From the NCBI GenBank assembly GCA_963921825.1, contig OY997591.1, positions 44,351,825 to 44,415,824 of the forward strand: a stretch of 64,000 bases of DNA. Direction: 5' to 3'. Shown piece after piece: positions 9,290 through 56,981 of this stretch (positions are counted from its first letter, which is position 1; every line of letters starts with the position of its first letter). The notes beneath the pieces were generated by a model. That model was not told the origin of the DNA. It was given only the letters and a program-made list of their open reading frames with translations, and made no database searches. The translations under genes and the position numbers were made by a program. The stretch comes from Erodium maritimum. Its lineage: Eukaryota; Streptophyta; Magnoliopsida; Geraniales; Geraniaceae.

Positions 9290-9290
9290 G

Positions 9291-9302
9291 TGGTATCAGA
9301 GA
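9291..9302 (+). promoter_or_regulatory. C3 primer-binding site, initiator tRNA-Met type
   Basis: tggtatcagaga follows the LTR end by one base and matches the plant initiator tRNA-Met primer site pattern tggtatcagagc at all but the last base. The corresponding sites of the other copies are at 27441-27452 (C2), 42904-42916 (C4) and 51903-51915 (C6). Confidence 0.88.
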
Positions 9303-9804
9303 CATGCTACCTTCGGGATTCACAAGACGGTGTTCAAAGTTTCGGTTTTGCTTGAAAGTTTCGTTTTTGGCATGTTGTTTTGCTAAATTGATTGATAACA
9401 TGTTTTAAATTATTGTTTATGTATTTAATGCATGTAAAATGAATTTTTGAAAATTATTTCAAATCTGGAAATTTTGAAAAAAGTTTGATTTTTCGGGTCT
9501 CGGGAGCGGGACTCTCGGGGAGCTGAAACCGAAACCGAACGGGGCTCCGTTGGACGGAGCTAGGCCAAGCATGACCATTGGATGGTTGATATGCTAAGGC
9601 TAAACCGTTTTGTTAGTTATGACGAGTTTGGAACCGTCATGACGAACTCGAAGATCAAATGTTCAAAAGTTTCATTTTGAACGGTTTCGATAAACCGAGC
9701 ATCAAAAAATTTCGAAACTTGGCTATTAAATAAAACCGGAAAATCACATGATGTTTGATAACATGATTGTTTGATAACACGATGTGTGATGTGATGTTGG
9801 CATG

Positions 9805-10092
9805 GTGTACATAATAGCCCCGAGCTTGATTTAATTATTTATCGCTTTTCACGGCCTGCGAGCCGTTAGAGTTAGCGTGTAATTATTCTTTCAAGGTGTG
9901 GTCGTCGAACCACTTGTGTGTAATATTTATTTATTCTCGACCTGCGAGTCGTGTATTGAATTGTAATTTTTTACTCAAGACGAAGAAAGGGCGAAAAAGT
10001 CATTTGGTGGATTTTCGGGTGTTAGCATCGGCTTGGAGTCGGTGGAGCTCATGAAGATAGTGGGAGTTATTTTAGGGGGCTATTATGTGCAC
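9805..10092 (+). promoter_or_regulatory. Copia leader RNA domain (C3 copy): long-range helix plus three hairpins
   Basis: The strands gtgtacataatagcccc (9805-9821) and ggggctattatgtgcac (10076-10092) pair over 17 bp with one G-U. They enclose hairpins at 9851-9866 (acggc, loop ctgcga, gccgt), 9898-9913 (gtggt, loop cgtcga, accac) and 9938-9951 (cgac, loop ctgcga, gtcg). It lies between the primer site and gag, where packaging and dimerisation signals of LTR elements usually sit. That role is inference. Confidence 0.7.
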
Positions 10093-10243
10093 ATTTATCG
10101 CTTTATGCTTGGTTTAGTTTATGCATGACTAATTCTATGTGTTTTAGAATTGCATGCTTAACTTTATTTACCGAGCATATCACCTCACATGCAAAGATAA
10201 AATTGGAATTTTAATCCTTGTGTGTGAGCCCTTAGAATCGCAT

Positions 10244-10664
10244 TACATTGGATGTAGTTGACGGGTTCGAAGGAAGAATTACATTGGATGTAATTTGAGG
10301 CATCATTGCATTTGGAATGTAGTTGATGTGCTCATCGCATCTAGGATGTGTCAAAGTTTTAAACACAACCGGACAAGTAAAAACGGGTCATGTCCGATAC
10401 CTCCCAATTATCAACACCTTACTACCTCCCCGTCCTATGGGTGTCGTGCGCATTAGCGGAGCATCCATGGGAAAGCGGGGTAGTAGGTTTGGACGACATA
10501 TGTGAGTGTCGTGCGCATTAGCGGAGCACCTACATAGTGACGAGCCATAGTTGAGAATTGGTGGACCCGACTACGATTCTTAGCCTGAGGTTGAGCTAGG
10601 GTAACAGATAGGGTAAGCCGTGTACATAAGTACATACCCTAGCCAGGAGTCACATTGGATGTGA
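10244..10664 (+). repeat. Repeated small hairpin motif in the Copia leader
   Basis: Three copies of an interrupted palindrome occur: tacattggatgta (10244-10256), ttacattggatgtaa (10279-10293) and tcacattggatgtga (10650-10664), plus a looser one near 10309-10321. A 23-bp direct repeat starting gtgtcgtgcgcattagcg lies between them at 10441-10463 and 10506-10528. Confidence 0.75.
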
Positions 10665-10843
10665 TTGGATGGAGTCCTACCTACATAACTCGATTAAGTG
10701 GTGAGCATTAGTTCAGCTTAATCGAGTGAATCAAGGATCTTGGTTTCAGATTCTAAAGGTTTAGAATCGATTGTTGGTGTTTAAGCTTGATCTTCATAAA
10801 ATTTATTCAGTTTACTGATTGAATTTTATCTGTTGTAGATCAA

Positions 10844-13800
10844 ATGGCAAATTCAGCGAACATTAATAGTTTGTCATTAAAAACCATTTTTGACAGGGTC
10901 AAGCTAAATAGGACAAACTATTTGGACTGGTACAGAATTTTGAGGATGGTCCTCAAGTCTGAACGCAAAGAATATGTCCTTCACAAGGCTGTCTCTAAGA
11001 CCATATCAGAGTTACATGAAGTGTCAATAACTGCTGAGAAGAATATATCAGGGATCTAGGATCCAAGGATATTCTGATGGTCAACAAGGGAATTGGAAGT
11101 GGCAAGGGCGGGGTCCATGCGCACTTGGCAGGAAAGATGAGACACCTGAGAATGTCTGCTTCTACTGCCAACAGCCTGGTCAGTGGAACCGGGATTACAG
11201 GAAGTTCACGGCTTATCTGAAGAAGGGCAGTGGGACTGCGCCTTCATCAAATAACCTGGATGATCTGAAGAAAGGCAGTAGGACTGCGCCTTCATCAGGA
11301 AACCTGGATGATCTAAGGAAGGGTGGTGGGACCGTGCCTTCATCCGGTATTAACTCTATAGAGCTACATCTCTCTACTTCCAAAGATTCATGGGTATTAG
11401 ATACCAGGACTGAATCTCACACATGCACTAATATATGGTGGGTGAAAGTAGGAGAGGTCTGGAAAGCACGAAGTGGACCTCAGAGTTGTGGCAATTGCTG
11501 TAGGATCCATGAGTCTTGCTTTGCCAAGTGGCCTTGTCTTAGTATTGTATAATGTATATTGCATACCTACTTTAAGTAGGAATATTATATCTGTATCCGT
11601 GTTTGACAAGGAAGGATATAATGTTAATATTGGAAATGGAGTTTTCAATGTTCTATGCAATGATATGTTTTATACCAATACTGACTTGGTTGAAGGATTG
11701 TACATATTAGATATGGGTAACAATGCCTCAAGTTCTATATATTACGTTAATACCAAGAGGTCTAAATCCAACGATTTAAACCTGACTCTGTTATGGCACT
11801 GTCATTTGGGTCGCATAAACAAGAAGCGCCTATCATCACTTCAGAAGTGCGGGCTTTCAGGTTCATTCGAATTCCATTCGATCGATAGGTGCAAGGTTTG
11901 TTTGATGGGCAAAATGATTAAAGTGCCATTTATCGATCGCGATGAAAGGGCGGGTGAATTATTGGGGCTGATACACTCGAATGTGTGTAGACCAATAACT
12001 TCACTTGCCAGGAGGGGTTTTAGCTACTTTATCACATTTACTTATGATTACAGTAAATATGGTTATGTCTATTCGCTGAGACATAAGTCTGAAGCTTTTG
12101 ATAAATTCAAAGAGTTTAAGACTAAAGTAGAAAACCAGCTCGACAAAGGTATTAAGGCACTTCGATTGGATCGAGGTGGAAAATACTTGAACATAGAGTT
12201 ATTAAATCATCTAAAAGAGAATGGGATCCTTTTGGAATGGACTCCTCCTAGGACACTGTAGTTGAAAGGTGTAGCCAAACGGAGAAATCGGACATTGTTA
12301 GACAATGGTCCGTTCCATGATTAGTTGGACTGATCTCCCAATCTCTTTCTGGGGTTATGCTCTAGAGACGACCGCATTCATAATGAATCGGGCTTCGACG
12401 AAAGGTGTGGAAGGGACACCATTTCAAAATGGTATGGGATGATGCCCGCTTTGTCCTACCTAAAGATTTGTGGTTGCGAGGCTTATGTGAAACATTTGGT
12501 TTCGACTAATCTCGAACCAAGATCTGAGATATGCACCTTCGTGTGGTATCCCAAAGCAACAAGGGGATACTATTTCTACAATCCCAGTGAGAACATGGTG
12601 TTCGTCACTTGGGGTGGGGTCTTTATGGAAAAGAAGTTTTGTTTCCAAAGACATCATTGGGAGGACTGTGCATCTCGAAGAAATTCAGGATGGTACAGAT
12701 CTGTCTAAACCAAATGACAACACAGTAGAAAGGAGCCAGAGATTGTCGTGGAGTAAGAACCAATTCTTGTTACAATTCTGGAAGGTCCAAGGCGATTTGA
12801 AAGGATCAATCTTCTACCTCCAAGATATGGTATCCGGAGGTGACAATGAAGTCATGGTGGATCACGATGATCCAGCCACCTTTCAAGAAGTCGTGGATGG
12901 GCCCGACTCCGAGTTATGGCTGGGAGCCATGAGGGAGGAAATGCAATCTATGTCGGACAACTAATTCTGGGAACTTGTTGATCCCATCAATGGTGTGAGG
13001 AGCATCGGATGCAAATGGATCTTCAAGGTGAAGATGGACATGGACGGCAACCCTCTGACCTACAAAGCTCAACTGGTGGCGAAAGGTTATAGGCAGATCC
13101 AATGGATTGACTATGAGGAAACCTTCTCCCTAGTGGCTATGGTCAAAATCGATCCAAATTCTTCTTGACATAACTGCGTATCATAATTACGAGATATGGA
13201 AAGTGGATGTCAAAACAGCTTTCCTAAATGGAAATATGACTGAGTACGTTTGTATGTCTCGGCCCAAAGGTTTTGACGATCCGAAGAATAAGGGAAAGAT
13301 TTATAAGTTGTTGAAATCCATTTATGGATTGAAACGAACTGCTCGGAGTTGGATCCTTCGTTTTGATGAAGCTGTAATTGGATTTGGCTTAATCAAGAAC
13401 GAGGATGAATCTTGCGTTTATAAGAAGGCTAGTGGGAGCAAGATTACATTTCTGGTTCTCATTGAAAACGACATCCCAACCTTGCACGAGACTCAAGCTT
13501 GGTTGAGGAAGTGTTTTTCAATAAAGGACTTAGGCGATGCTTCTTATATCTTAAGGATTAAGATATGTAGAGATCGCACCAAGAGGGTCTTGGATTTAAG
13601 TAAGGGAACCTATGTGAACAAGGCATTGAGTAGTCTCTTAATGCTCGATTCAAAGAAAGGACTCTTACCCACTAGTCATGGCATTCATCTCAGCAAGACT
13701 CAGTGTCCTAAGACACCTGATGAGCTGAAAAGGATGATGAGAATCCTATGCGCCTGGGGGCAGGATCGATCATATATGCCATGACATGTATAAGACCGGA

Positions 13801-14220
13801 CGTCTCGTAAGCCTTATGTTGTACCAGTAGACATCAGTCTAACCCGGGGAAAGATGATGATGAACTAGTCGTCGAAGGATGAGTAGACGCTAGTTTTCCA
13901 AGACAAATCCAGATGACTTTAGAAGTCAATCAGGATATGTGTTTATGCTGAATGGCAGAGCTTTAGCTGGGAGAGCGTAAAGCAAGATACCATTGCCGAA
14001 TCTACAACAGAGGCCAAGTACATGGATGCTGCAGAGGTAGCTAAGGAGGCTATGTGGATTTGGAAATTCACGGCAGGGTTGGGCGTAATTTAAAACCCAT
14101 CCAGCCTGGTGAATCCATTTTGCGACAACACAAGGGCCATTGCGCAAGCTAAAAGCCCAGATCGCATAACAAATCCAAACATGTACTACGGCGTATCCAC
14201 CTAATCAGAGAAATACTGAA
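10844..14220 (+). pseudogene. C3 gag-pol remnants
   Basis: In order: a Copia-type gag start (LDRVKLNGTNYLDWYRILR-like, from 10844), a CCHC zinc-knuckle remnant (CFYCQQPGHW near 11152), a gag-pre-integrase segment (LLWHCHLGRINKKRL, about 11790), integrase core (FSYFITFTYDYSKYGYVYS, about 12020), reverse transcriptase (DVKTAFLNGN, IYGLKRT, about 13203-13784) and RNase H (about 13930-14220). The family is Ty1/Copia; LTR length and layout suggest a long-LTR lineage near Tork or Angela, not settled here. The coding region is broken many times and shows no intact polyprotein. Confidence 0.88.
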
Positions 14221-14370
14221 CTGAGGTGAAGTGAAGATAACCTATATTGCAACAGATAATAACATAGCCAACCCTTTGACTAAGGCAGTGTCGCTGCCTA
14301 AACATGTTAGACATGTAAAGTCGATGGGGACATATTGGAGTTTAGATTGGAACTAGGGCAAGTGGGAGAT

Positions 14371-16058
14371 TGTTAGTCTTAGTGCCCGTAGTTCAATCCT
14401 AAATGTCCAAATGTACATATCATCGTTAGCAATAAAATTAAAGCGGCTTTATATTACTTATGTGTTGGAGTAATATATCGATGTGTGCTCTGATCTATGC
14501 CCACCATGCGAATAGAACCATAGATCGAGATAGATCACACTCGATGGGTCCCTAGTCAACAAAGCTTCACTAGAAGCGACTAGTATGAAAGATGGCTCTT
14601 TATGGCTTACGTTTTGTTAGTCATTGGAATGGGATTCCGGAGTCTGATCATAGATATCATGTGGGACATGATATTGGACGACCCGCCCTGAATATGTGCC
14701 ATAGATTAAGTCATGAACATATTCAGTGTCGTAGCTTGTCATGTATCCTTAGACCAATGAGTCTTTGTGATCGCTATGTAGTCAACAACTGAGTTTGACC
14801 TGAGCCTAACGTTGTCCGTAACAGGGCTTCCATAACGGCCAGGATTGGCTTGCGGATGGGCTACATGAGTGACACGAAAGGCGGCTAAGGGATTTATCCC
14901 TCATACTGAGGTATGGGAAAGATATCGGTTCTCGGCCGCTTGATCGAGAGTGACTGAAAGAATAGCATGGCCATGCACATGATACTGGGTATCATATCTT
15001 CAGTCATCTCACATATCAAGGAACGGTGATTGAGAATAATAAGGATGACGGCTCTATGCCTTATCTCAATCAGGATATCGGAGATAAAAGGATAATGACA
15101 GGGATGACGGAAAGGTTAGAATCGACAGGTTCGATTCGTTATGCAGTGTCAGGCAATACTAAAGTCTCGTTAGTTGCCACTTAAATAGGATCAAGTAAAA
15201 TGGGATTTTACGTTGATCTATTGACATGCATAAACCTAAGGGTCACACCGGAGGATGAAACTCATTGACACATTTATGGAGAATGGCCAAAAGGGAGTTG
15301 TCTCGGGACATGACCAAAATTGGGGTTTGGGTCATGTGCCCGTACGTGAATAGGACTTTACGGATCGAGACAAGGCTTGGAGTCTTGGGATTGATCGCGT
15401 CGGATAATGTTGGACATTTCCGGTATGGAAGGCTTGGAGGCGATGAGCGAATCACGAGACCTCGTTAGAAATGGCCACGGGCCATGTTCCAAGAGGCCCA
15501 TGAAAGGCCCATGCAACCAAGACCCATGGAACTAATTAATCAAGTCTTGATTAATTAGTACTAAGTAAGCAAGACAAGGATTAAGGTGTTGGTGATTCAC
15601 CACCTAACCCAATCTTGTCTTGCCATACTTTGTCCTATTTACACCTTACTTGACACCATACTTGTCCCATGCCTTTAGTTGGACAAGTATGTGTTTTGTT
15701 ATGTTGAAGTCATCTTTTTTCAACATAACAAACACTAGACAAGAATAGGAAACACATTTTCTCTCCCTATTCCATGGCCATTTCGGGTTTGGCTAGTTTT
15801 CACCTCCATTTTTGTGTTCTTGAGTCCTCAAAGAGAAGAACTACGTGGCTTTGATTCCCATGTGGATACGTAGGCGTCTTGGAGACTCAAGTCAATCATT
15901 CGTTAACCAGTGTTCTTGTTTTGGTAAGAACTAGTGCTGAATTTTTCTCTTGTGAATCCATTCTGTGTTAGTTGTTTCATGGTTTTAATCGTCTCTTGGT
16001 TTTCATTGATTTTCCGCTGCGAGTTGGTTCATCTCCAACCCTACCTCGACACCCAACA
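14371..16058 (+). repeat. C3 3' LTR
   Basis: A 1688-bp LTR from tgttagtcttagtgcc to acacccaaca, preceded by a purine tract (aagtgggagat) that serves as plus-strand primer in this family. Confidence 0.95.
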
Positions 16059-21097: not shown

Positions 21098-22457
21098 CTT
21101 TTTGTGTCTTGTGTTTGTTATGTTGAAAAAAAATAACTTAAACATAATAAACCCCATCAATTTGTCCAACTAAAGGCATGGGACAAGTATGGTGCTAAGT
21201 AAGGCTAGACAAGATGGGGTTGGGTGGTGAATCATCAATACCTTAATCCTTGTCTTGCTTACTTAGTACTAATTAATCAATAATTGATTAATTAGTTCCA
21301 TGGGCCTTGGTTGCATGGGCCTCTCATGGACCTCTTGGAACAGGGCCCGTGGTCATTCCTAACGAGGTCCAGTGATGCGCTTATCGCCTCCAAGCCTTCC
21401 ATATTGGAAATGTCCAACATTATCCGACGTGATCAATCCCAAGACTCCAAGCCTTGTCTCGATCCGTAATGTCCTATTCAATCACAGGCACATGACCCAA
21501 AACCCAATTTTGGTCATGTCCTAAGACAACTCCCTTTTGGCCATTCTCCATAAATGTATCAATGAGTTTCATCCTCCGATGTGAGCCTTAGGTTTATGCA
21601 TGTCAATATATCAACGTAAAATCTCATTTTACTTTATCCTTTATAAGTGGAAACTAACGAGACTTTAGTATTGCCTGACACTGTATAACGAATCAACCAT
21701 GTCGATTCTAACCTTTCTGTCGTCCATATCATTATCCATTTATCACCGATATCCTGATTGAGATAAGGCATATAACCATCATCCTTATTGTTCTCAATCA
21801 TTGTTCCTTGATATGTGAGATGACTGAATATATGATACTCAGTATCATGTGCATGACCATGCTATTATTTAAGTCACTCTCGATTAAGCGACCGAGAACC
21901 GATATCTTTCCCATACCGCAGTATGAGGGATAAATCCCATTAGCCATCTTTCGTGTCACTCATGCAGTCCGTCCCCAAGCCAATCCTGGCCGTTATGGAA
22001 ACCCTGTCATAGGCAACATTGGGATCAGGTCAAACTCAGTTGTTTACTGCATAGTAATCACAAAGACACCTTGGTCTAAGGATACATGACAAGCTACGAC
22101 AATGACTATGTTCATGACTTGATCTATGGAACATATTCATGTCGGGTCGTCCAATATCATGTCCCATATGATATCTATGATCAGACTCCAGAATCTCATT
22201 CCAATGACTAACAGAATGTAAGCCATAAAGAGCCATCTTTCATGTTATTTGCTTCTAGTGAAGCTTTGTTGACTAGGGACCCATCGAGTGTGATTTATCT
22301 CGATCTATGGTTCTATTTGCATTGTGGGCATAGATCAGAGCACACATCGATATATTACTCCAACACATATGTAATATAAAGCCGCTTTAATTTTATTGCT
22401 AACGATGATATATACATTTGGACATTTAGGATTGAACTACGGGCACTAAGACTAACA
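21098..22457 (-). repeat. C2 3' LTR, right arm
   Basis: Continues the LTR interrupted at 6621, starting with the second copy of the LINE B TSD, and ends taagactaaca before the rc purine tract (atctcccacttgcc). Confidence 0.92.
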
Positions 22458-25400
22458 ATCTCCCACTTGCCCTAGTTCCAATCTAAACTCCAATATGTCC
22501 TGATCGACTTTACATGTCTAACATGTGTAGGCAGTAACAGTGTCTTAGTCAAAGGGTTGGCTATGTTATCATCCGTTGAAATATGAGATATCTTCACTTC
22601 ACCTCGGTTCAGTATTTCTCTGATGAGGTGGGTACGTCGTAGTACATGTTTGGATTTGTCATGCGATCTGGGCTTTTAGCTTGCGCAATGGCCCTTGTGT
22701 TGTCGAAAAATGGATTCGCTGGGCTAGATGGGTTTTTAATTACACCCAACCCTGCCGTGAATTTCCAAATCCACATAGCCTCCTTAGCTGCCTCTGCAGT
22801 ATTCATGTACTTGGCCTCTGTCGTAGTTCGGCAACGGTATCTTGCTTTACGCTCGCCCAACTAAAGCTCTGCAATTCAGCATAAACATATATCATGACTG
22901 ACTCATACAGTCATCTAGATTTATCTTGGAAAACTAGCGTCTACCCATCCTTCGACGACTAGTTCATCATCATCTTTCCTTCGGGTTAGACTGATGTCTA
23001 CTGGTACAACATAAGGCTTACAAGACGTATATGATCGATCCTGCCCCCATGCATATGAGATTCACATCATCCATTTCAGCTCATCAGGTGTCTTAGGACA
23101 CTGAGTCTTGGTGAGTTGAATGCCATGACTAGTGGGTAAGAGTTCTTTCTTTGAATTGACCATTGAGAACCTACTCAATGCATTGTTCACATAGGTTCCC
23201 CGACTTAAATCCAATACCCTCTTGGTGTGATCTCTACATATCTTAATCCCTAAGATATAAGTAGCATCGCCTAAGTCCTTTATTGAGAAACACTTCCTCA
23301 ACCAAGCTTTAGTCTCGTGCAAGATTGGGATGTCGTTTCCATTGAGCACTAGAAAGGTAATCTTGCTCCCACTAGCCTTCTTATAAACGCAAGGTTCATC
23401 CTCGTTCTTGATTAAATCAAATCCAATTACAGCTTCATCAAAACGAAGGTTCCAACTCTGAGAAGCTTGTCTCCATCCATAAATGGATTTCGAAAACTTA
23501 CAAATCTTTCCCTTGTTCTTCGGATCGACAAAACCTTCTGGCTGAGACATAAAAGGTCCTCAGTCAAACTTCCATTGAGGAAAGCAGTTTTGACATCCAC
23601 TTGCCATATCTCGTAATTATGATATGTAGTTATGTCAAGAAGAATTTGGATCGATTTTGACAATAGCCACTAGGGAGAAGGTTTCATCATAGTCAATGCA
23701 TTGGATCTCCCTATAACCTTTCTCCACCAGTCGAGCTTTATAGGTCAAAGGTTACCTTCCATGTCCATTTTCACCTTGAAGATCCATTTGCATCTGATGA
23801 CCCTTACACCATTGATGGGATCAACCAGTTCCCAGACTTGGTTGTCCGACATGGATCGCATTTCCTCCCTCATGACTCCAAACCATAACTTGGAGTCAGG
23901 CCCATCCATGACTTCGTTAAAGGTGGCTGGATCATTGTGATCCACCATGACTTCATTGTCACCTCTGGATACCATATCTTGGAGGTGGATGACTGATCCT
24001 TTCAGATCGCCTTGGACCTTCAGGAATTGGTTCTTACTCTACGACAATCTCTGGCTCCATTTCTACTGGGTTGTCAATTGGATTAGACGGATTTGTACCA
24101 TCCTGAATTTCTTTGAGATGCACAGTCCTCCCAATGATGTCTTTGGAAACAAAACTCCTTTTTCATATAGACCCACCCCAAGCAACGAACACCATGTTCT
24201 CACTGGGTTTGTAGAATTAGTATCCCCTTATTTCTTTGGGATACCCCACGAAGGTGCATATCTCAGATCTTGGTTTGAGCTTAGTTGAAACCAAATGTTT
24301 CACTTAAGCCTCGCAACCAAAAATCTTTAGGAACGACAAAGCGGGCATCTTTCCATGCCATTTCTAAAATGGTGTCCCTTCCACAGCCTTTTTCGGAGCC
24401 TGATTCACTATGAATGCGGTCGTCTCTAGAGAATAACCCTAGTAAGAGATTGGGAGATCTGTCCAACTGATCATGGATCGGACCATATCCAATAAAGTCT
24501 GATTTCTCCGCTCGGGCACAACATTCAACTGTGGTGTTCCAGGAGGAGTCCATTCTGAAGAGATCACGCTCTCCACCAGATGATCTAAAAACTCTATGGT
24601 TAAGTATTTTCCACCTCGGTCCAATCGAAGTGTCTCAATACTTTTCTCGAGCCGGTTTTCTGCTTCAGTCTTTAACTCTTTGAATTTATCAAAAGCTTCA
24701 GACTTATGTCTTATTGAATAGACAAAACCATATCTACTATAATCATTAGTAAATGTGATGAAGTAGCTAAAACTCCTCTTGGCCAACGAACCTATTGGTC
24801 CACACACATCCGAGTGTATCAGCCCCAATATTTCACCCGCCCTTTCACCGCGATCGATAAAGGGAGCTTTAGTCATTTTTCCCATCAAACAAGCCTTGCA
24901 CCTATCGATCGAATGGACCTGAAAGCCCGCACTTCTGAAGTGCTGATAGGCGCTTCTTGTTTATGCGACGCAAATGACAGTGCCATAAAAGAGTTAGGTT
25001 TAAAACACTGGATTTCGACCTCTTAGTATTAACATAATATATAGAACTTGAGGCATTGTTAACCATATCTAATATTTACAATCCTCCAACCAAGTTAGTA
25101 CTAGCATAAAACATATCATTGCATAGAACATTGAAAACTCCATTTCCAATATTAACATTATATCCTTCTTTGTCAAACACGGATACAGATATAATATTCC
25201 TACTAAAAACAGGTATGCAATATACATTATACAATACTAAGAGAAGGCCACTTGGCAAAGAGAGATTCATGGATCCTACAGCAGTTGCCACAACTCCGAG
25301 GTCCACTTCGTACTTTCCAAACCTCTCCTACTTTCAGCCACTATACGTTAGAGCATGTGTGAGATTCAGTCCTGGTATCTAATACCTATGAATATTTGGA

Positions 25401-27453
25401 AGTAGAGAGATGTAGCTCTATAGAGTTAATACCGGATGAAGGCACGGTCCCACCGCCCTTCCTTAGATCATATAGGTTTCCTGATGAAGTCCCGGTCCTA
25501 CTACCCTTCTTCAAATCATCCAGGCTATCTGATGAAGGCGCATTCCTACTACCCTTCTTCATATTAGCCGTGAACTTCCTATAATCCCGGTTCCAATGAC
25601 CAGGTTGTTGGCAATATCAGCAGACATTCTCAGGTGTCTTATCTTTCCCGCCAAGTTTGCATGGGCCCCACCCTTGCCACTTCCAATTCCCTCGTTGACC
25701 ATCAGAATGTCCTTGGATCCCAAATCCCTGATATTCTTCTCAGTAGTTAATGACATTTCATGTAACTCTGATACGGTCTTAGAGACAACCTTATCAAGGA
25801 CATATTCTTTGTGTTCATACTTGAGGACTATCCTCAAAATTCTGTACCAGTCCAAATAGTTTGTCCCATTTAGCTTGACCCTGTCACGAATGGTTTTTAA
25901 CGACAAACTATTAAAGTTTGCTGAATTTTCCATTTGATGTACAATAGATAAAATTCAATTAGTTAACTGAATAAATTTTATGAAGATCAAGCTTAAACAC
26001 CAACAACCGATTCTATACATTTAGAATCTAAAACCAGGATCTTTGATTCGCTCGATCAAGCTGAACGAAGGCTCACCACTCAATCGAGCTATGTAGGTAG
26101 GGCCCCATCCAATCACATCCAATGTGACTCTTGGCTAGGGTATGTACTTAAGTACACGACTTACCCTATCTGATACCCTGGCTCAACCCTAGCTTAGAAT
26201 CGTAGTCGGGTCCACCAATTTTTAACTATGACCCGCCACTATGTAGGTGCTCCGCTAAGGCGCACAACACCCATATATGTCGTCCAAACCTACTACCCCG
26301 CTTTCCCATGGATGCTCTGCTAAGGCACACGACACCCATAGGACGGGGAGGTTGTAAGGTGTTTATAATTGGAAGGTATCAGACATGACTCGTTTTTACT
26401 TGTCGGTTGTGTTTAAAACTTTAGGATCAAATACATTCCAAATGTAATGATGCCTCCAATTACATCCCATGTAGTTCTTCCTTCGAACCCGTCAACTACA
26501 TCCAATGTAATGACGGTTCTAAGGGCTCACAAACAAGGATCAAAACCCAATTTTATCTTTGCATGTGAGGTGATATGCTCGGTAAATAAAGTTAAGCATA
26601 CAATTCTAATCCAACACATAGAATTAATCATGCATAAACTAAACCAAGCATAAAGCGATAAATGTGCACATAATAGCCCCCTAAACTAACTCGAACTAGC
26701 TTCTTGAGCCCCACCAACTCCAAGCCGATGTCAACACCGGAAAAACCACCAATTGACATTTTCGCCCTTTCTTCGTCTTGAGAAAAATATTACAATTTAA
26801 TACACGACTCGCAGGTCGGGAATTAATAAATATTACAAATAAGTGGTTTGACGACCACACCTTGAAAGAATTATTACACGCTAACTTTAACGGCTCGCAG
26901 GCCGTGAAAAGCGATAAATAATTAAATCGAGCTCGAGGCTATTATGTACACCATGCCAACACCACATCACACATCGTGTTGTCAAACAAGCATGTTATCA
27001 AACATCATGTGATTTTCCAGTTTTGATTAATAGCCAAGTTCCAAAAAAAAAAAAATTGATGCTCTGTTTATCGAAACCGTTCAAAATTGAAACTTTTGAA
27101 TATTTGATCTTCGAGTTCGCCATGACGGTTCCAAACTCGTCATAACTAACAAAAGGTTTTAGCCTTGGCGTATCAACCAGCCAATGGTCATGCTTGGCCT
27201 AGCTCCGTCCAACAGAGCCCCGTTCGATCCCGGTTTTGGCTCCCTGAGAGTCCTGATCCCGAGACCCGATATATCAAAAAAAAACTTAAAATTTCCAGGT
27301 TTGAAATAATTTTAAGAATTCATTTTAGATGCATTAAATCCATAAACAAGAATTTAAAACAGGTTATCAAACAATTTGGCAAATTAACATGTCAAAACTG
27401 AAACTTTCAACACCGACTTGTGAATCCCGAAGGTAGCACAGCTCTGATAACAC
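22458..27453 (-). pseudogene. C2 internal region: gag-pol remnants and leader
   Basis: On the minus strand, from right to left: primer site (27441-27452), leader with the same 288-nt RNA domain as C3 (26664-26951), gag (from about 25933), integrase (about 24880-24440), reverse transcriptase (about 23663-23062) and RNase H (about 22860-22609). The protein order and family are as in C3, but sequence divergence is clearly higher. It is broken many times. Confidence 0.88.
26664..26951 (-). promoter_or_regulatory. Copia leader RNA domain (C2 copy)
   Basis: The same domain as at 9805-10092 and also exactly 288 nt. Outer strands are at 26935-26951 and 26664-26680; hairpins at 26890-26905, 26843-26858 and 26805-26818. 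In this oldest copy the outer helix has one C-to-U change that still pairs as G-U, and the middle loop has changed while its stem has not. Confidence 0.7.
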
Positions 27454-36143: not shown

Positions 36144-37831
36144 TGTTGGGTCTCGAGGTAGGGTTGGAGATGAACCAACTCGCAGCGGAAAATCAATGAA
36201 AACCAAGAGACAATTAGAACCATGAAACAACTAACAAAGAATGGATTAACAAGAGAAAAATTCAGCACTAGTTCTTACCAAAACAAGAACACCGGTTAAC
36301 GAATGATTGGCTTGAGTCTCCAAGACGCCTACGTATCCACATGGGAATCAAAGCCACGTAGTTCTTCTCTTTGAGGACTCAAGAACACAAACATGGAGGT
36401 GGAAACTAGCCAAACCCGAAATGGCCATGGAAGAGGGAGAGAAAATGTGTTTCCTATTCTTGTCTTGTGTTTGTTATGTTGAAAAAAGATGACTTAAACA
36501 TAACAAAACCCATACTTGTCCAACTAAAGGCATGGGACAAGTATGGTGTCAAGTAAGGTGTAAATAGGACAAAGTATGGCAAGACAAGATTGGGTTAGGT
36601 GGTGAATCACCAACACCTTAATCCTTGTCTTGCTTACTTAGTACTAATTAATCAAGACTTGATTAATTAGTTCCATGGGCCTTGGTTGCATGGGCCTTTC
36701 ATGGGCCTCTTGGAACATGGCCCGTGGCCATTTCTAACGAGGTCCCGTGATTCGCTCATCGCCTCCAAGCCTTCCATACCGGAAATGTCCAACATTATCC
36801 GACGCGATCAATCCCAAGACTCCAAGCCTTGTCTCGATCCGTAAAGTCCTATTCACGTACGGGCACATGACCCAAAACCCAGTTTTGGTCATGTCCCGAG
36901 ACAACTCCCTTTTGGCCATTCTCCATAAATGTGTCAATGAGTTTCATCCTCCGGTGTGACCCTTAGGTTTATGCATGTCAATAGATCAACGTAAAATCCC
37001 ATTTTACTTGATCCTATTTAAGTGGCAACTAACGAGACTTTAGTATTGCCTGACACTGCATAGCGAATCGACCCTTTCGATTCTAACCTTTCCGTCGTCC
37101 CTGTCATTATCCTTTTATCTCCGATATCCTGATTGAGATAAGGCATAGAGCCGTCATCCTTATTATTCTCAATCACCGTTCCTTGATATGTGAGATGACT
37201 GAAGATATGATACCCAGTATCATGTGCATGGCCATGCTATTCTTTCAGTCACTCTCGATCAAGCGGCCGAGAACCGATATCTTTCTCATACCTCAGTATG
37301 AGGGATAAATCCCTTAGCCGCCTTTCGTGTCACTCATGTAGCCCGTCCCCAAGCCAATCCTGGCCGTTATGGAAGCCCTGTTACGGACAACGTTAGGCTC
37401 AGGTCAAACTCAGTTGTTGACTACATAGCAATCACAAAGACTCCTTGGTCTAAGGATACATGACAAGCTACGACACTGAATATGTTCATGACTTAATCTA
37501 TGGCACATATTCAGGGCGGGTCGTCCAATATCATGTCCCACATGATATCTATGATCAGACTCCGGAATCCCATTCCAATGACTAACAGAACGTAAGCCAT
37601 AAAGAGCCATATTTCATACTAGTCGCTTCTAGTGAAGCTTTGTTGACTAGGGACCCATCGAGTGTGATCTATCTCGATCTATGGTTCTATTCGCATGGTG
37701 GGCATAGATCAGAGCACACATCGATATATTACTCCAACACATAAGTAATATAAAGCCGCTTTAATTTTATTGCTAACGATGATATATACATTTGGACATT
37801 TAGGATTGAACTACGGGCACTAAGACTAACA
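36144..37831 (-). repeat. C4 3' LTR
   Basis: 1688 bp, from tgttgggtctcgagg to taagactaaca, followed by the rc purine tract. Confidence 0.96.
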
Positions 37832-37982
37832 ATCTCCCACTTGCCCTAGTTCCAATCTAAACTCCAATATGTCCCCATCGACTTTACATGTCTAACATGT
37901 TCAGGCAGTGACACTGCCTTAGTCAAAGGGTTGGCTATGTTATCATCTGTTGCAATATCGGTTATCTTCACTTCACCTCAGT

Positions 37983-40900
37983 TCAGTATTTATCTGATGA
38001 GGTGGATACGCCGCAGTACATGTTTGGATTTGTTATGCGATCTAGGCTTTTAGCTTGCGCAATGTCCCTTGTGTTGTCGCAAAATGGATTCACCGGACTG
38101 GATGGGTTTTTAATTACACCCAGCCCTGCCATGAATTTCCAAATCCATATAGCCTCCTTAGCTGCCTCTGCAGCATCCATGTACTTGGCCTCTGTCGTAG
38201 ATTCGGCAATGGTATCTTTCTTTACGCTTTCCCAGCTAAAGCTCTGCCATTCAGCGTAAACACATATCCTGATTGACTTCTAAAGTCATCTGGATTTGTC
38301 TTGGAAAACTAGCGTCTACTCATCCTTCGACGACTAGTTCAGCATCATCTTTCCCCCGGGTTAGAATGATGTCTACTGGTACAACATAAGGCTTACGAGA
38401 CGTCTGGTCTCATACATGTCATGGCATATATGATCGATCCTGCCCCCAGGCGCATAGGATTCTCATCATCCTTTTCAGCTCATCAGGTGTCTTAGGACAC
38501 TGAGTCTTGCTGAGATGAATGCCATGACTAGTAGGTAAAAGTCCTTTCTTTGAATCGAGCATTAAGAACCTACTCAATGCCTTGTTCACATAGGTTCCCT
38601 GACTTAAATCCAAGACCCTCTTGGTGCGATCTCTACATATCTTAATCCTTAAGATATGAGAAGCATCGCCTAAGTCCTTTATGTAAAAACACTTCCTCAA
38701 CCAAGCTTTAGTCTCGTGCAAGGTCGGGATGTCGTTTTCAATGAGAACCAGAAAGGTAATATTGCTCCCACTAGCCTTCTTATAAACGCAAGATTCATCC
38801 TCGTTCTTGATTAAGCCAAATCCAATTACAGCTTCATCAAAACGAAGGATCCAACTCTGAGAAGTTCGTTTCAATCCATAAATGGATTTCAACAACTTAT
38901 AAATCTTTCCTTTATTCTTCGGATCGTCAAAACCTTTGGGCCGAGACATACAAACGTACTCAGTCAAATTTCAATTTAGGAAAGCGGTTTTGACATCCAC
39001 TTGCCATATCTCGTAATTATGATACGCAGTTATGTCAAGAAGAATTTGGATCGATTTTGACCATAGCCACTAAGGAGAAGGTTTCCTCATAGTCAATCCA
39101 TTGGATCTGCCTATAACCTTTCGCCACCAGTTGAGCTTTGTAGGTCAGAGGGTTGCCGTCCATGTCCATCTTCACCTTGAAGATCCATTTGCATCCTATG
39201 GTCCTCACACCATTGATGGGATCAACCGGTTCCCAGACTCGGTTGTCCGACATGGATTGCATTTCCTCCCTCATGGCTCCCAGCCATAACTCGGAGTTGG
39301 GCCCATCCATGACTTCCTGAAAGGTGGCTGGATCATCGTGATCCACCATGACTTCATTGTCACCTCCGGATACCATATCTTGGAGGTGGAAGATTGATCC
39401 TTTCAAATCGCCTTGGACCTTCCGGAATTGTAACAGGAATTGGTTCTTACTCTACGACAATCTCTGGCTCCTTTCTACTGGGTTGCCAATTGGTTTAGAC
39501 AGATCTGTACCATCCTGAATTTCTTCGAGATGCACAGTCCTCCCAATGACGTCTTTGGAAACAAAACTTCTTTTCCACAAAGACCCCACCCCAAGCGACG
39601 AACACCATGTTCTCACTGGGATTGTAGAAATAGTATCCCCTTGTTGCTTTGGGATACCACACGAAGGTGCATATCTCAGATCTTGGTTCGAGCTTAGTCG
39701 AAACCAAATGTTTCACATAAGCCTCGCAACCACAAATCTTTAGGAAGGACAAAGCGGGCATCATCCCGTACCATTTTTAAAATGGTGTCCCTTCCACACC
39801 CTTCGTCGAAGCCCGATTCACTATGAATGCGGTCGTCTCTAGAGCATAATCCCAGAAAGAGATTGGGAGATCAGTCCAACTAATAATGGAACGGATCATT
39901 GTCTAACAATGTCCGATTTCTCCGTTTGGCTACACCTTTCATCTACAGTGTCCCAGGAGGAGTCCATTCCAAAAGGATCCCATTCTCTTTTAGATGATCT
40001 AATAACTCTGTGGTCAAGTATAGTCCACCTCGATCCAATCGAAGTGCCTTAATACCTTTGTCGAGCTGGTTTTCTACTTTAGTCTTAAACTCTTTGAATT
40101 TATCAAAAGCTTCAGACTTATGTCTCAGCGAATAGACATAACCATATTTACTGTAATCATCAGTAAATGTGATAAAGTAGCTAAAACCCCTCCTGGCAAG
40201 TGAACTTATTGGTCTACACACATTCGAGTGTATCAGCCCCAATAATTCACCCGCCCTTTCATCGCGATCGATAAAAGGGCACTTTAGTCATTTTGCCCAT
40301 CAAACAAACCTTGCACCTATCTATCGAATGGAATTCGAATGAACCTGAAAGCCCGCACTTCTGAAGTGCTGATAGGCGCTTCTTGTTTATGCGACCCAAA
40401 TGACAGTACCATAACAGAGTTAGGTTTAAATCGTTGGATTTAGACCTCTTGGTATTAACGGAATATATAGAACTTGAGGCATTGTTACCCATATCTAATA
40501 TGTACAATCCTCCAACCATGTCAGTACTGGTATAAAACATATCATTGCATAGAACATTGAAAACTCCATTTCCAATATTAACATTATATCCTTCCTTGTC
40601 AAACACGGATACAGATATAATATTCCTACTAAAAGTAGGTATGCAATATACATTATACAATACTAAGACAAGGCCTCTTGGCAAAGCAAGACTCATGGAT
40701 CCTACAGTAGTTGCCACAACTCTGAGGTCCATTTCGTGCTTTCCAAATCTCTCCTACTTTCAGCCACCATATATTAGTGCATGTGTGAGATTCAGTCATG
40801 GTATCTAATACCCATGAATCTTTGGAAGTAGAGAGATGTAGCTCTATAGAGTTAATACCGATTGAAGGCACGGTCCCACCGCCCTTCCTTAGATCATCCA

Positions 40901-41361
40901 GGTTTCCTGATGAAGGCGCAGTCTTACTGCCCTTCTTCAGATCATCCAGGCTATTTGATGAAGGCGTAGTCCCACTGCCCTTCTTCAGATCAGCCGTGAA
41001 CTTCCTGTAATCCCGGTTCCAATGACCAGGCTGTTGGCAGTAGAAGCAGACATTCTCAGATGTCTCATCTTTCCTGCCAAGTGCGCATGGGCCCCGCCCT
41101 TGCCACTTCCAATTCCCTTGTTGACCATCAGAATATCCTTGGATCCCAGATCCCTGATATATTCTTCTCAGCAATTAATAACACTTCATGTAACTCTGAT
41201 ATGGTCTTAGAGACAGCCTTGTCAAGGACATATTCTTTGCGTTCAGACTTGAGGACTATCCTCAAAATTCTGTACCAGTCCAAATAGTTTGTCCCATTTA
41301 GCTTGACCCTGTCAAGAATGGTTTTTAATGACAAACTATTAGTGTTCGCTGAATTTGCCAT
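37983..41361 (-). pseudogene. C4 gag-pol remnants
   Basis: From right to left: gag start (41361), zinc knuckle CFYCQQPGHWNRD (about 41050), gag-pre-integrase (about 40400), integrase core (about 40240-39943), RT (DPKNKGKIYKLLKSIYGLKR, about 38967-38419) and RNase H (about 38260-37983). The content is that of C3 and C6. Broken. Confidence 0.9.
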
Positions 41362-42113
41362 TTGATCTACAACAGATAAAATTCAATCAGTAAACTGAAT
41401 AAATTTTATGAAGATCAAGCTTAAACACCAACAATCGATTCTAAACCTTTAGAATCTGAAACCAAGATCCTTGATTCACTCGATTAAGCTGAACTAATGC
41501 TCACCACTTAATCGAGCTATGTAGGTAGGACTCCATCCAATCACATCCAATGTGACTCTTGGCTAGGGTATGTACTTATGTACACGACTTACCCTATCTG
41601 TTACCCTAGCTCAACCTCAGGCTGAGAATCGTAGTCGGGTCCACCAATTTTCAACTATGGCTCGTCACTATGTAGGTGCTCCGCTAATGCGCACGACACC
41701 CACATATGTCGTCCAAACCTACTACCCCGCTTCCCCATGGATGCTCCGCTAATGCGCACGACACCCATAGGACGGGGAGGTAGTAAGGTGTTGATGATTG
41801 GGAGGTATCGGACATGACCCGCTTTTACTTGTCCAGTTGTGTTCAAAACTTTGGCACATCCTAGATGCGATGAGCACATCAACTACATTCCAAATGCAAT
41901 GATGCCTCAAATTACATCCAATGTAATTCTTCCTTTAAACCCGTCAACTACATCCAATGCAATGACGGTTCTAAGGGTTCACACACAAGGATTAAAATTC
42001 CAATTTTATCTTTGCATGTGAGGTGATATGCTCGGTAAATAAAGTTAAGCATGCAATTCTAAAACACATAGAATTAATCATGCATAAACTAAACCAAGCA
42101 TAAAGCGATAAAT

Positions 42114-42401
42114 GTGCACATAATAGCCCCCTAAACTAACTCCCACTAGCTTCTTGAGCTCCACCGACTCCAAGCCGATGCCAACACCCGAAAAGCCACC
42201 AAATGACCTTTTCGCCCTTTCTTCATCTTGAGTAAAATATTACAATTTAATACACGACTCGCAGGTCGGGAATAAATAAATATTACAAACAAGTGGTTCG
42301 ACGACCACACATTGAAAGAATAATTACACGCTAACTCTAACGGCTCGCAGGCCGTGAAAAGCGATAAATAATTAAATCGAGCTCGGGGCTATTATGTACA
42401 C
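42114..42401 (-). promoter_or_regulatory. Copia leader RNA domain (C4 copy)
   Basis: The same 288-nt domain as at 9805-10092. Outer strands are at 42385-42401 and 42114-42130, hairpins at 42340-42355, 42293-42308 and 42255-42268. Confidence 0.7.
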
Positions 42402-42917
42402 CATGCCAACATCACATCACACATCGTGTTATCAAACAAGCATGTTATCAAACATCATGTGATTTTCCGGTTTTAATTAATAGCCAAGTTTCGAAATTTT
42501 TTGATGCTCGGTTTATCGAAACCGTTCAAAAATGAAACTTTTGAACATTTGATCTTCGAGTTCGTCATGACGGTTCCAAACTCGTCATAACTAACAAAAC
42601 GGTTTAGCCTTGGCATATCAACCATCCAATGGTCATGCTTGGCCTAGCTCCGTCCAACGGAGCCCCGTTCGGTCCCGGTTTCGGCTCCCCGAGAGTCCCG
42701 CTCCCGAGACCCGAAAAATCAAATTTTTTTCAAAATTTCCAGATTTGAAATAATTTTCAAAAATTCATTTTACATGCATTAAATCCATAAACAAGAATTT
42801 AAAACATGTTATCAAACAATTTAGCAAAACAACATGCCAAAAACGAAACTTTCAAGCAAAACCGAAACTATGAACACCGTCTTGTGAATCCCGAAGGTAG
42901 CACGGCTCTGATACCAC

Positions 42918-44605
42918 TGTTGGGTCTCGAGGTAGGGTTGGAGATGAACCAACTCGCAGCGGAAAATCAATGAAAACCAAGAGACAATTAGAACCATGAA
43001 ACAACTAACAAAGAATGGATTAACAAGAGAAAAATTCAGCACTAGTTCTTACCAAAACAAGAACACCGGTTAACGAATGATTGGCTTGAGTCTCCAAGAC
43101 GCCTACGTATCCACATGGGAATCAAAGCCACGTAGTTCTTCTCTTTGAGGACTCAAGAACACAAACATGGAGGTGGAAACTAGCCAAACCCGAAATGGCC
43201 ATGGAAGAGGGAGAGAAAATGTGTTTCCTATTCTTGTCTTGTGTTTGTTATGTTGAAAAAAGATGACTTAAACATAACAAAACCCATACTTGTCCAACTA
43301 AAGGCATGGGACAAGTATGGTGTCAAGTAAGGTGTAAATAGGACAAAGTATGGCAAGACAAGATTGGGTTAGGTGGTGAATCACCAACACCTTAATCCTT
43401 GTCTTGCTTACTTAGTACTAATTAATCAAGACTTGATTAATTAGTTCCATGGGCCTTGGTTGCATGGGCCTTTCATGGGCCTCTTGGAACATGGCCCATG
43501 GCCATTTCTAACGAGGTCCCGTGATTCGCTCATCGCCTCCAAGCCTTCCATACCGGAAATGTCCAACATTATCCGACGCGATCAATCCCAAGACTCCAAG
43601 CCTTGTCTCGATCCGTAAAGTCCTATTCACGTACGGGCACATGACCCAAAACCCAGTTTTGGTCATGTCCCGAGACAACTCCCTTTTGGCCATTCTCCAT
43701 AAATGTGTCAATGAGTTTCATCCTCCGGTGTGACCCTTAGGTTTATGCATGTCAATAGATCAACGTAAAATCCCATTTTACTTGATCCTATTTAAGTGGC
43801 AACTAACGAGACTTTAGTATTGCCTGACACTGCATAGCGAATCGACCCTGTCGATTCTAACCTTTCCGTCGTCCCTGTCATTATCCTTTTATCTCCGATA
43901 TCCTGATTGAGATAAGGCATAGAGCCGTCATCCTTATTATTCTCAATCACCGTTCCTTGATATGTGAGATGACTGAAGATATGATACCCAGTATCATGTG
44001 CATGGCCATGCTATTCTTTCAGTCACTCTCGATCAAGCGGCCGAGAACCGATATCTTTCTCATACCTCAGTATGAGGGATAAATCCCTTAGCCGCCTTTC
44101 GTGTCACTCATGTAGCCCGTCCCCAAGCCAATCCTGGCCGTTATGGAAGCCCTGTTACGGACAACGTTAGGCTCAGGTCAAACTCAGTTGTTGACTACAT
44201 AGCAATCACAAAGACTCCTTGGTCTAAGGATACATGACAAGCTACGACACTGAATATGTTCATGACTTAATCTATGGCACATATTCAGGGCGGGTCGTCC
44301 AATATCATGTCCCACATGATATCTATGATCAGACTCCGGAATCCCATTCCAATGACTAACAGAACGTAAGCCATAAAGAGCCATATTTCATACTAGTCGC
44401 TTCTAGTGAAGCTTTGTTGACTAGGGACCCATCGAGTGTGATCTATCTCGATCTATGGTTCTATTCGCATGGTGGGCATAGATCAGAGCACACATCGATA
44501 TATTACTCCAACACATAAGTAATATAAAGCCGCTTTAATTTTATTGCTAACGATGATATATACATTTGGACATTTAGGATTGAACTACGGGCACTAAGAC
44601 TAACA
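42918..44605 (-). repeat. C4 5' LTR
   Basis: 1688 bp, next to the primer site at 42904-42916, and nearly identical to 36144-37831. Confidence 0.96.
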
Positions 44606-50228: not shown

Positions 50229-51901
50229 TGTTAGTCTTAGTGCCCGTAGTTCAATCCTAAATGTCCAAATGTACATATCATCGTTAGCAATAAAATTAAA
50301 GCGGCTTTATATTACTTATGTGTTGGAGTAATATATCGACGTGTGCTCTGATCTATGCCCACCATGCGAATAGAACCATAGATCGAGATAGATCACACTC
50401 GATGGGTCCCTAGTCAACAAAGCTTCACTAGAAGCGACTAGTATGAAAGATGGCTCTTTATGGCTTACGTTCTGTTAGTCATTGGAATGGGATTCCGGAG
50501 TCTGATCATAGATATCATGTGGGACATGATATTGGACGACCCGCCCTGAATATGTGCCATAGATTAAGTCATGAACATATTCAGTGTTGTAGCTTGTCAT
50601 GTATCCTTAGACCAAGGAGTCTTTGTGATCGCTATGTAGTCAACAACTGAGTTTGACCTGAGCCTAACGTTGTCCGTAACAGGGCTTCCATAACGGCCAG
50701 GATTGGCTTGGGGACGGGCTACATGAGTGACACGAAAGACGGCTAAGGGATTTATCCCTCATACTAAGGTATGGGAAAGATATCGGTTCTCGGCCGCTTG
50801 ATCGAGAGTGACTGGAAGAATAGCATGGCCATGCACATGATACTGGGTATCATATCTTCAGTCATCTCACATATCAAGGAACGGTGATTGAGAATAATAA
50901 GGATGACGGCTCTATGCCTTATCTCAATCAGGATATCGGAGATAAAAGGATAATGACAGGGACGACGGAAAGGTTAGAATCGACAGGGTCGATTCGCTAT
51001 GCAGTGTCAGGCAATACTAAAGTCTCGTTAGTTGCCACTTAAATAGGATCAAGTAAAATGGGATTTTACGTTGATCTATTGACATGCATAAACCTAAGGG
51101 TCACACCGGAGGATGAAACTCATTGACACATATATGGAGAATGGCCAAAAGGGAGTTGTCTCGGGATATGACCAAAACTGGGTTTTGGGTCATGTGCCCG
51201 TAAGTGAATAGGACTTTACGGATCGAGACAAGGCTTGGAGTCTTGGGATTGATCGCGTCGGATAATGTTGGACATTTCCGGTATGGAAGGCTTGGAGGCG
51301 ATGAGCGAATCACGAGACCTCGTTGGAAATGGCCATGGGCCATGTTCCAAGAGGCCCATGAAAGGCCCATGGAACTAATTAATCAAGTCTTGATTAATTA
51401 GTACTAAGTAAGCAAGACAAGGATTAAGGTGTTGGTGATTCACCACCTAACCCAATCTTGTCTTGCCATACTTTGTCCTATTTACACCTTACTTGACACC
51501 ATACTTGTCCCATGCCTTTAGTTGGACAAGTATGGGTTTTGTTATGTTTAAGTCATCTTTTTTCAACATAACAAACACAAGACAAGAATAGGAAACACAT
51601 TTTCTCTCCCTCTTCCATGGCCATTTCGGGTTTGGATAGTTTCCACCTCCATGTTTGTGTTCTTGAGTCCTCAAAGAGAAGAACTACGTGGCTTTGATTC
51701 CCATGTGGATACGTAGGCGTCTTGGAGACTCAAGCCAATCATTCGTTAACCGGTGTTCTTGTTTTGGTAAGAACTAGTGCTGAATTTTTCTCTTGTTAAT
51801 CCATTCTTTGTTAGTTGTTTCATGGTTCTAATTGTCTCTTGGTTTTCATTGATTTTCCGCTGCGAGTTGGTTCATCTCCAACCTTACCTCGAGACCCAAC
51901 A
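50229..51901 (+). repeat. C6 5' LTR
   Basis: From tgttagtcttagtgcc to gagacccaaca. It contains at least eight short-loop inverted repeats (see findings), the strongest a 29-base palindrome at 51374-51402 and an 11-bp stem at 51500-51510 with 51524-51534. Confidence 0.96.
51374..51402 (+). promoter_or_regulatory. 29-base palindrome in the Copia LTR
   Basis: actaattaatcaag and its reverse complement flank a single T. It is present in the C3-C6 LTRs (for example about 49675-49703 and 58127-58155). Function unknown; it could be a strong RNA hairpin or a protein-binding site in the U3 region. Confidence 0.6.
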
Positions 51902-51902
51902 G

Positions 51903-51915
51903 TGGTATCAGAGCC
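51903..51915 (+). promoter_or_regulatory. C6 primer-binding site, initiator tRNA-Met type
   Basis: tggtatcagagcc starts two bases after the LTR end and matches the plant initiator tRNA-Met site in full. Confidence 0.92.
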
Positions 51916-56830: not shown

Positions 56831-56981
56831 ACTGAGGTGAAGTGAAGATAACCGATATTGCAACAGATGATAACATAGCCAACCCTTTGACTAAGGCAGT
56901 GTCACTGCCTGAACATGTTAGACATGTAAAGTCGATGGGGACATATTGGAGTTTAGATTGGAACTAGGGCAAGTGGGAGAT

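Follow-up and report, generated by a model that had tools for sequence, protein, structure and literature searches.

The choice of RNA for assembly by plant LTR retrotransposons is largely unexplained. For Ty1 and Ty3, the packaging sequences are, according to the accessible portion of a review, not clearly defined, and scattered sites may contribute (PMC4974528). The same portion states that packaging of Ty3 RNA needs the zinc finger of Gag3, and that Ty1 Gag is devoid of a zinc finger (PMC4974528), unlike the Gag of family A described below, which has a CCHC match. The available sections of two reports on Ty1 describe a 5' domain, within the first 326 nt, in which a long-range pseudoknot and kissing hairpins serve dimerisation and packaging (PMC5454406, PMC8396678). 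The element studied here is likewise of the Copia type, with long-range pairing near its 5' end that encloses hairpins; unlike the pseudoknot of Ty1, this pairing is a plain helix situated 515 nt after the primer site. A long-range helix that organises hairpins between the primer site and gag is also described, in the accessible part of the report, for the retroviral Psi of MMTV (PMC11449360).

We analyzed a window of 64,000 nucleotides from Erodium maritimum (assembly GCA_963921825.1, 763 Mb in 40 contigs; contig OY997591.1, positions 44,351,825 to 44,415,824), which contains four copies of the element, termed C2, C3, C4 and C6. The first-pass annotation of this DNA had proposed a closed 288-nt RNA domain in the leaders of these copies. 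We found that the closed domain is real, common and uncovaried, and that the stronger RNA-level signal is an array of NGG/UAG-triloop hairpins extending over the entire element, with one such hairpin inside the domain.

The element belongs to Copia, as its integrase precedes RVT_2 and it possesses LTRs and an iMet-type primer site, TGGTATCAG, directly 3' of the LTR; the Pfam domains gag_pre-integrs, rve (in C3 under the Pfam cut-off) and RVT_2 are present. The LTR is 1688 bp long, with the two LTRs of C4 being 99.9% identical and the 5' LTR of C3 being shortened to about 185 bp. In C3 the primer site lies at 9291 and the gag ATG at 10847, and the domain was correctly placed between them. Across the eight other Copia lineages examined in this genome, the distance from the primer site to the gag match is 99-274 nt in every case, and the long leader is therefore peculiar to this group. 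The gag of C3, C4, C6 and most other loci ends after about 70 codons; we designate these copies family N. In the loci L041, L048 and L055 gag continues past this break, and these define family A. Family N (window 10847 onward, and the equivalents in C4 and C6) also shows degraded pol frames, so that it stands as a non-autonomous family beside the gag-intact family A. A search with the A-type gag gave 1308 candidates, of which all 150 that were scored are 99-100% identical, many of them in long open frames. A CCHC match is found in the gag-pol piece of both A copies inspected, while the last cysteine is replaced by tyrosine in the N copies C3, C4 and C6. Tandem elements with seemingly common LTRs occur in both families: in N, the domain or gag matches are 6772-6777 nt apart (C7:35659096-35672926 and C1:14739270-14752840), and in A the matches are 7264 nt apart (C7:56515508-56530347).

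The domain and its parts in the window are as follows:
9291..10846, forward strand: leader of C3, running from the primer site up to but not including the gag ATG, 1556 nt long and containing 40 ATGs
9805..10092, forward strand: closed leader domain of C3 (sequence, folding)
9805..9821, forward strand: 5' arm of the 17-bp closing helix of C3 (sequence, folding)
10076..10092, forward strand: 3' arm of the 17-bp closing helix of C3 (sequence, folding)
9851..9866, forward strand: hairpin 1, loop CTGCGA, folding probability 0.74-0.84 in C3
9898..9913, forward strand: hairpin 2 (middle), folding probability 0.83-0.97 in C3
9938..9951, forward strand: hairpin 3 as first annotated, loop CTGCGA, paralogue of hairpin 1; folding unsupportive, probability 0.03 in C3
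52418..52705, forward strand: closed leader domain of C6 (sequence, folding)
42114..42401, reverse strand: closed leader domain of C4 (sequence, folding)
26664..26951, reverse strand: closed leader domain of C2, an old copy (sequence, folding)

At all four places the closing helix pairs GTGTACATAATAGCCCC with GGGGCTATTATGTGCAC, 254 nt apart, through 16 Watson-Crick pairs and one U-G pair; the domain is on the forward strand in C3 and C6 and on the reverse strand in C2 and C4. Its length is exactly 288 nt in each of the four copies, as had been claimed, and in 63 of 72 rows comprising the window and the additional loci (two window copies being counted twice), with the others spanning 284-289 nt. 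The two changes reported for C2 were also borne out: position 16 of the arm goes from C to T, turning a C-G pair into a U-G pair, and the middle hairpin is altered in its loop alone. Among the long-range inverted repeats in the leader this helix ranks first, scoring 18.7 where 12 leader shuffles reached no more than 14.5, and the minimum free energy of the domain has a z-score of -3.2, with 0 of 200 shuffles being equally good. When eight full leaders were folded as 1620-nt ensembles, the mean pair probability of the closing helix was 0.97-1.00 in all eight, and 99-100% of the pairing of the domain was internal to it. Most family A copies keep 16 of the 17 pairs, with U-G becoming U-A, the outer G-C becoming G-U and the innermost pair being lost.

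Of the three hairpins said to be enclosed by the helix, folding supports two. Hairpin 1 has a probability of 0.74-1.00 in the six leaders, out of the eight folded, where the CTGCGA loop was found, and hairpin 2 one of 0.83-0.99 in the four window copies (the other four leaders were left unscored because their loop differs). In contrast, hairpin 3 reaches at most 0.03 in seven of the eight leaders, and 0.51-0.54 in C2. The loop CTGCGA is indeed common to hairpins 1 and 3, which are paralogues 86 nt apart, distinguished by a single base pair, G-C against A-U, below an unchanged loop, and form part of an imperfect internal duplication of about 85 nt. A role for CTGCGA as a kissing loop was considered and dropped since, by inspection, the loop lacks self-complementarity. 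The unit contains three occurrences of the related heptamer CTGCGAG, where 0.4 are expected, at 9248-9254 (end of the LTR, close to the primer site), 9857-9863 and 9943-9949 (hairpins 1 and 3); the heptamer is lost in some copies. The domain also holds a hairpin with a UGG triloop (10026-10044) that had escaped the first-pass annotation.

The domain occurs thousands of times in the genome: at three mismatches or fewer, the 5' arm gave 5864 + 5830 genome matches and the reversed pattern 469 + 481, where one domain may match twice because its two arms are almost reverse complements of each other. Family A carries the same domain, at 39 further places at 95% identity (spans of 287-290 nt) and in all 13 family A leaders fetched. 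All 30 loci that were cut out, which are exact arm matches at the first positions on one contig, lie within the leader of the A/N Copia group, and none is free-standing. Two stretches of the window taken at first for homologues of the domain (46852-47193 and 60858-61199) turned out to be unrelated sequence. Covariance models of Rfam 15 gave two chance-level matches in window 9000-11000, both far under the gathering score.

The covariation expected of a conserved structure was absent: none of 45 pairs showed a two-sided change among 77 aligned domains (71 distinct), where a shuffle control expects 0.2. This sample consists of families A and N alone. We searched for distant families in several ways. 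Twenty gag starts fetched via Pfam PF14223 included none that was related; a search with L058 returned family A again; viral contigs gave no matches. A search with the piece upstream of L048 recovered relatives down to 73% identity, with 20 fetched places being devoid of the leader, and was unhelpful because the piece is flanking DNA of another repeat. No distant family having been found, the test rests on A and N, which differ by only about 4-5% in the domain, and it is thus weak rather than contrary. Variable sites number 9 of 34 in the closing helix, where the 5' arm is partly invariant through the selection of loci by exact arm matches, 5 of 20 in the stems of hairpins 1 and 2, and 63 of 180 elsewhere in the domain; neither the arms nor the hairpin stems are less variable than other sites (stems against others, p 0.46). 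Fixed differences between A and N amount to 24/505 from the primer site to the domain, 13/288 in the domain, 27/752 from the domain to the ATG, and 20/155 at the gag start, the last figure being partly inflated by an alignment break. By this measure the domain is not better conserved than its flanks; the entire leader is conserved to an equal degree, so that the domain does not stand out. Structured RNA thus lies between the primer site and gag, as in Psi, and maintenance of the structure by compensatory change, likewise a mark of Psi, was not seen in the 71 distinct, little-diverged sequences. As for the packaging, dimerisation or translation-control function first suggested, a cis-acting role on genomic RNA fits, and the tests of covariation and conservation lend the domain itself no support.

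These results bear on a second explanation, in which the domain is a neutral relic, left by an ancient inverted duplication or by the capture of an inverted-repeat element, that became fixed before A and N diverged and has stayed stable only through the youth of the families. Such an origin would account for the missing covariation and extra conservation, for the internal duplications around the domain and for an A/N divergence of just about 4.5% within it. Against it, there is no target-site duplication at the domain ends, all 30 exact-arm-match loci sit in this leader with no free element among them, and the helix retains a pair probability close to 1 in A copies, in N copies and in old ones; we regard it as a rather unlikely account. 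The narrower idea of a MITE or inverted-repeat DNA transposon was rejected, given the lack of target-site duplication and the confinement of 30/30 exact matches to the leader. The sequence ATTTATCGCTTT is repeated exactly at 9837-9848, within the domain, and at 10093-10104, directly after the 3' arm, and this repeat is possibly a trace of the origin of the inverted repeat. Elsewhere in the leader there are three 23-nt copies around ACATTGGATGT (window 10240-10669) and two 26-nt copies of TGNGTGTCGTGCGCATTAGCGGAGCA (window 10438-10528).

A listing of perfect UGG-loop hairpins from the leader produced nine, one of them within the domain and one in gag. We defined array hairpins as stems of at least 6 bp with a triloop UGG, GGG, AGG or UAG. 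C3 has 23 of these, which, along with the arrays of the other copies, are located as follows:
9543..9561, forward: triloop hairpin ggctccgtTGGacggagct
9572..9588, forward: triloop hairpin tgaccatTGGatggttg
10026..10044, forward: triloop hairpin catcggctTGGagtcggtg, within the domain, folding probability 0.75 in C3
10242..10258, forward: triloop hairpin attacatTGGatgtagt
10276..10296, forward: triloop hairpin gaattacatTGGatgtaattt
10305..10323, forward: triloop hairpin attgcattTGGaatgtagt
10336..10350, forward: triloop hairpin cgcatcTAGgatgtg, low folding probability, 0.02 in C3
10648..10666, forward: triloop hairpin agtcacatTGGatgtgatt
10889..10903, forward: triloop hairpin tttgacAGGgtcaag, gag
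10939..10957, forward: triloop hairpin tttgaggaTGGtcctcaag, gag
12158..12178, forward: triloop hairpin cacttcgatTGGatcgaggtg, pol
12293..12307, forward: triloop hairpin cattgtTAGacaatg, pol
12319..12335, forward: triloop hairpin gattagtTGGactgatc, pol
12914..12932, forward: triloop hairpin ttatggctGGGagccatga, pol
13019..13035, forward: triloop hairpin atcttcaAGGtgaagat, pol
13579..13593, forward: triloop hairpin ccaagaGGGtcttgg, pol
13914..13928, forward: triloop hairpin tgacttTAGaagtca, pol
14302..14316, forward: triloop hairpin acatgtTAGacatgt
14624..14640, forward: triloop hairpin ttggaatGGGattccgg, 3' LTR
14653..14675, forward: triloop hairpin gatatcatgtGGGacatgatatt, 3' LTR
14979..14995, forward: triloop hairpin atgatacTGGgtatcat, 3' LTR
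15195..15211, forward: triloop hairpin gtaaaatGGGattttac, 3' LTR
15371..15387, forward: triloop hairpin caaggctTGGagtcttg, 3' LTR
50482..57998, forward: array of C6, 32 NGG/TAG triloop hairpins, two LTRs included
36815..44352, reverse: array of C4, 31 NGG/TAG triloop hairpins, two LTRs included
21440..27219, reverse: decayed array of the old copy C2, 10 NGG/TAG triloop hairpins remaining

In the C6 leader the TGG triloop occurs seven times on stems of at least 6 bp, whereas the commonest triloop of any kind never exceeds three in 500 shuffles. The C4 unit, comprising one LTR and the internal part (6784 nt), contains 43 triloop hairpins, against a mean of 14.7 and a maximum of 29 in 1000 exact dinucleotide shuffles, and 25 of these belong to the NGG/TAG loop class (TGG 12, GGG 5, TAG 5 and AGG 3), against a mean of 1.08 and a maximum of 5; the loop class was picked post hoc from the data, while the test on triloops of any kind was not. 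Sense loops number 25 and reverse-complement loops 1, and with Watson-Crick pairs only there remain 26 triloop hairpins, 16 of the loop class and none with a reverse-complement loop. Loop length 3 alone is enriched (43 against 15.1), with lengths 4-9 falling inside the range of 60 shuffles. U-A closes 17 of the 25 loop-class hairpins, which are distributed over the LTR (7), the leader (8) and gag-pol (10). Controls, counted with CGG added to the loop class, gave 8 hairpins in 29.8 kb of window DNA not belonging to the family, 5 in 25.8 kb taken from other repeats that were fetched and 3 in 13.3 kb from eight other Copia lineages, together 16 in 68.9 kb. The array of family A has 22 distinct hairpins in 7.6 kb and no reverse loops. 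The element thus bears stem-loops sharing a loop motif in numbers that exceed chance, and the element-wide array is statistically firm. In the leader ensembles, array hairpins with a probability of at least 0.6 make up 8/11 in C6 and in C4, 8/10 in the A copy L113, 6/10 in C3, 6/8 in L108, 3/7 in L048 and 3/8 in C2. The UGG hairpin of the domain is predicted for C3 and for A copies and has a probability of 0.00-0.05 in C2, C4 and C6, and the cgcatcTAGgatgtg hairpin is poorly folded in all copies (0.02-0.23).

This distribution bears on a further proposal, that structures in the leader act in translation, splicing or export, such that the leader would be bypassed by splicing or an internal start, with the structured unspliced RNA being left for packaging. 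A 1.56-kb leader with 40 ATGs before gag would suit such a bypass, as would donor-like GTAAG sites at 9155 (LTR) and 10613 (late leader) and, identified by eye, an acceptor-like TTGTAG at 10836-10841, six bases before the gag ATG; the accessible part of a report on BARE1 describes distinct pools of RNA, one translated, one spliced and one packaged (PMC3735527). Nevertheless, a role restricted to the leader leaves the array in the LTR and pol unexplained, and we consider this proposal improbable. As an observation in its own right, the GTAAG and TTGTAG sites suggest possible splicing of the leader.

Comparison of the families provides a measure of how the array is retained. Outside the stems, A and N diverge by 5.9% (LTR), 5.6% (leader) and 13.3% (pol). 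Within stems, 27 of 599 sites are changed, compared with 518 of 5394 at the remaining sites, a low figure that is partly ascertainment, N being the family in which the hairpins were called; when A serves as the starting point, leader stems show no conservation (17/249 against 82/1403), and the hairpins lost in the leader all lie outside the loop class. In C2, whose changes are mostly its own, stems show no conservation (49/580 against 465/5348). From N to A, 37 of 43 triloops and 22 of 25 loop-class hairpins are retained, from A to N 37 of 44 and 21 of 22, and from C4 to the old copy C2 22 of 43 and 14 of 25. A neutral simulation taking C4 as the ancestor, with a fixed transition bias and with indels and codon constraint ignored, reaches the product observed for both directions, at any split of the divergence, with P 0.001-0.004 for the loop class and 0.006-0.013 for all triloops. 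Hairpins are thus kept in the related elements A and N beyond simulated neutral decay. Two-sided stem changes show no excess of pairing, with four paired and five broken; clean pair-keeping changes occur at C4-unit positions 3310/3314, 4252/4266 and 5963/5985, a fourth pair (4714/4720) is kept in an otherwise lost hairpin, and the pair 3355/3373 is broken by a change from T-G to C-A. The loops in pol drift, with 11 of 54 sites changed, some leaving the NGG class.

The main rival for the array as a functional entity is fold-back synthesis, in which the nascent strand folds back during reverse transcription and copies itself, converting near-palindromes to perfect short hairpins of no benefit to the element. 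Quasipalindrome template switching has been described for E. coli (PMC7202029). The process would explain the perfect stems, the fixed minimal loop length and the one-strand bias, as well as the spread over LTR, leader and coding region, the pair-keeping two-sided changes and the fact that transmitted lineages retain the hairpins better than a chromosomal copy does. It is opposed only by the loop bias and the restriction to this family: fold-back copying by itself does not yield the NGG/UAG loop class, and the other Copia lineages of the genome, which likewise reverse-transcribe, have just 3 hairpins in 13.3 kb. We hold it to be possible, if on the unlikely side. Should the palindromes be such a by-product, they would record an unrecognised mutational habit of the reverse transcriptase. 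Action of the hairpins in DNA or silencing, for instance as binding sites or sources of small RNAs, appears very improbable to us: the hairpins are palindromic in DNA too, are present in the LTRs and belong to a very abundant family, but the differing sequences of their stems argue against a DNA-sequence-specific reader and their loop bias is strand-specific.

The CCHC knuckles of retroviral nucleocapsid proteins recognise unpaired G. Family N has its gag deleted, exists in thousands of copies and has its leader in common with the gag-intact family A, which indicates that N RNA is recognised in trans. We favor, tentatively and at a little under even odds, the reading that the array consists of dispersed Gag-recognition hairpins, for which we infer Gag binding, function at the RNA level and packaging as the outcome. 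The main recurring element would be the short NGG/UAG-triloop hairpin, mostly U-A closed and sense-oriented over LTR, leader and gag-pol, presenting an unpaired G in a tight loop to the single CCHC zinc knuckle of the family A Gag, and many such low-affinity sites on one RNA would label it for assembly. The domain would be one locally closed module of the long (1.56 kb) structured leader of this abundant A and N Copia group, with the 17-bp helix holding the module folded apart from the remainder. N RNAs, without a full Gag product, would ride in A particles, and the array could be a natural mark of self given this dependence. The full statement, that two to three dozen NGG/UAG triloop hairpins along the entire RNA are read by the Gag zinc knuckle and mark both autonomous and gag-less members for assembly, we would give a probability of roughly one in three. 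If true, it would constitute a dispersed packaging-signal system in an LTR retrotransposon, and a loop-coded array in thousands of copies, common to Gag-making and Gag-less families, would make RNA choice testable in vitro.

Searches of the open-licence literature turned up no counter-example to the claimed novelty of the domain shape in plant Copia leaders, and no publication about a triloop-hairpin array in LTR retrotransposons. The dispersed packaging signals of ssRNA viruses, as described in a review (PMC6281560), are likewise many short stem-loops with varied stems and a common loop motif on the genomic RNA; for these viruses coat-protein binding is demonstrated, whereas the NGG/UAG triloops of the plant Copia array are putative Gag-binding sites. 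Similarly, the Psi hairpins of MMTV bind Gag, according to the available part of that study (PMC11449360), while those of the present element are candidate Gag sites and its array covers the whole element. The Ty1 5' domain works on helper-dependent RNAs, by the accessible sections of the reports cited above, which likens it to the situation of A and N. In barley, BARE2 is a gag-less Copia family parasitic on the autonomous BARE1, with conserved packaging signals presumed (PMC3735527), and is in this respect like family N beside family A; unlike for the A/N group, the accessible part of that report mentions no triloop array.
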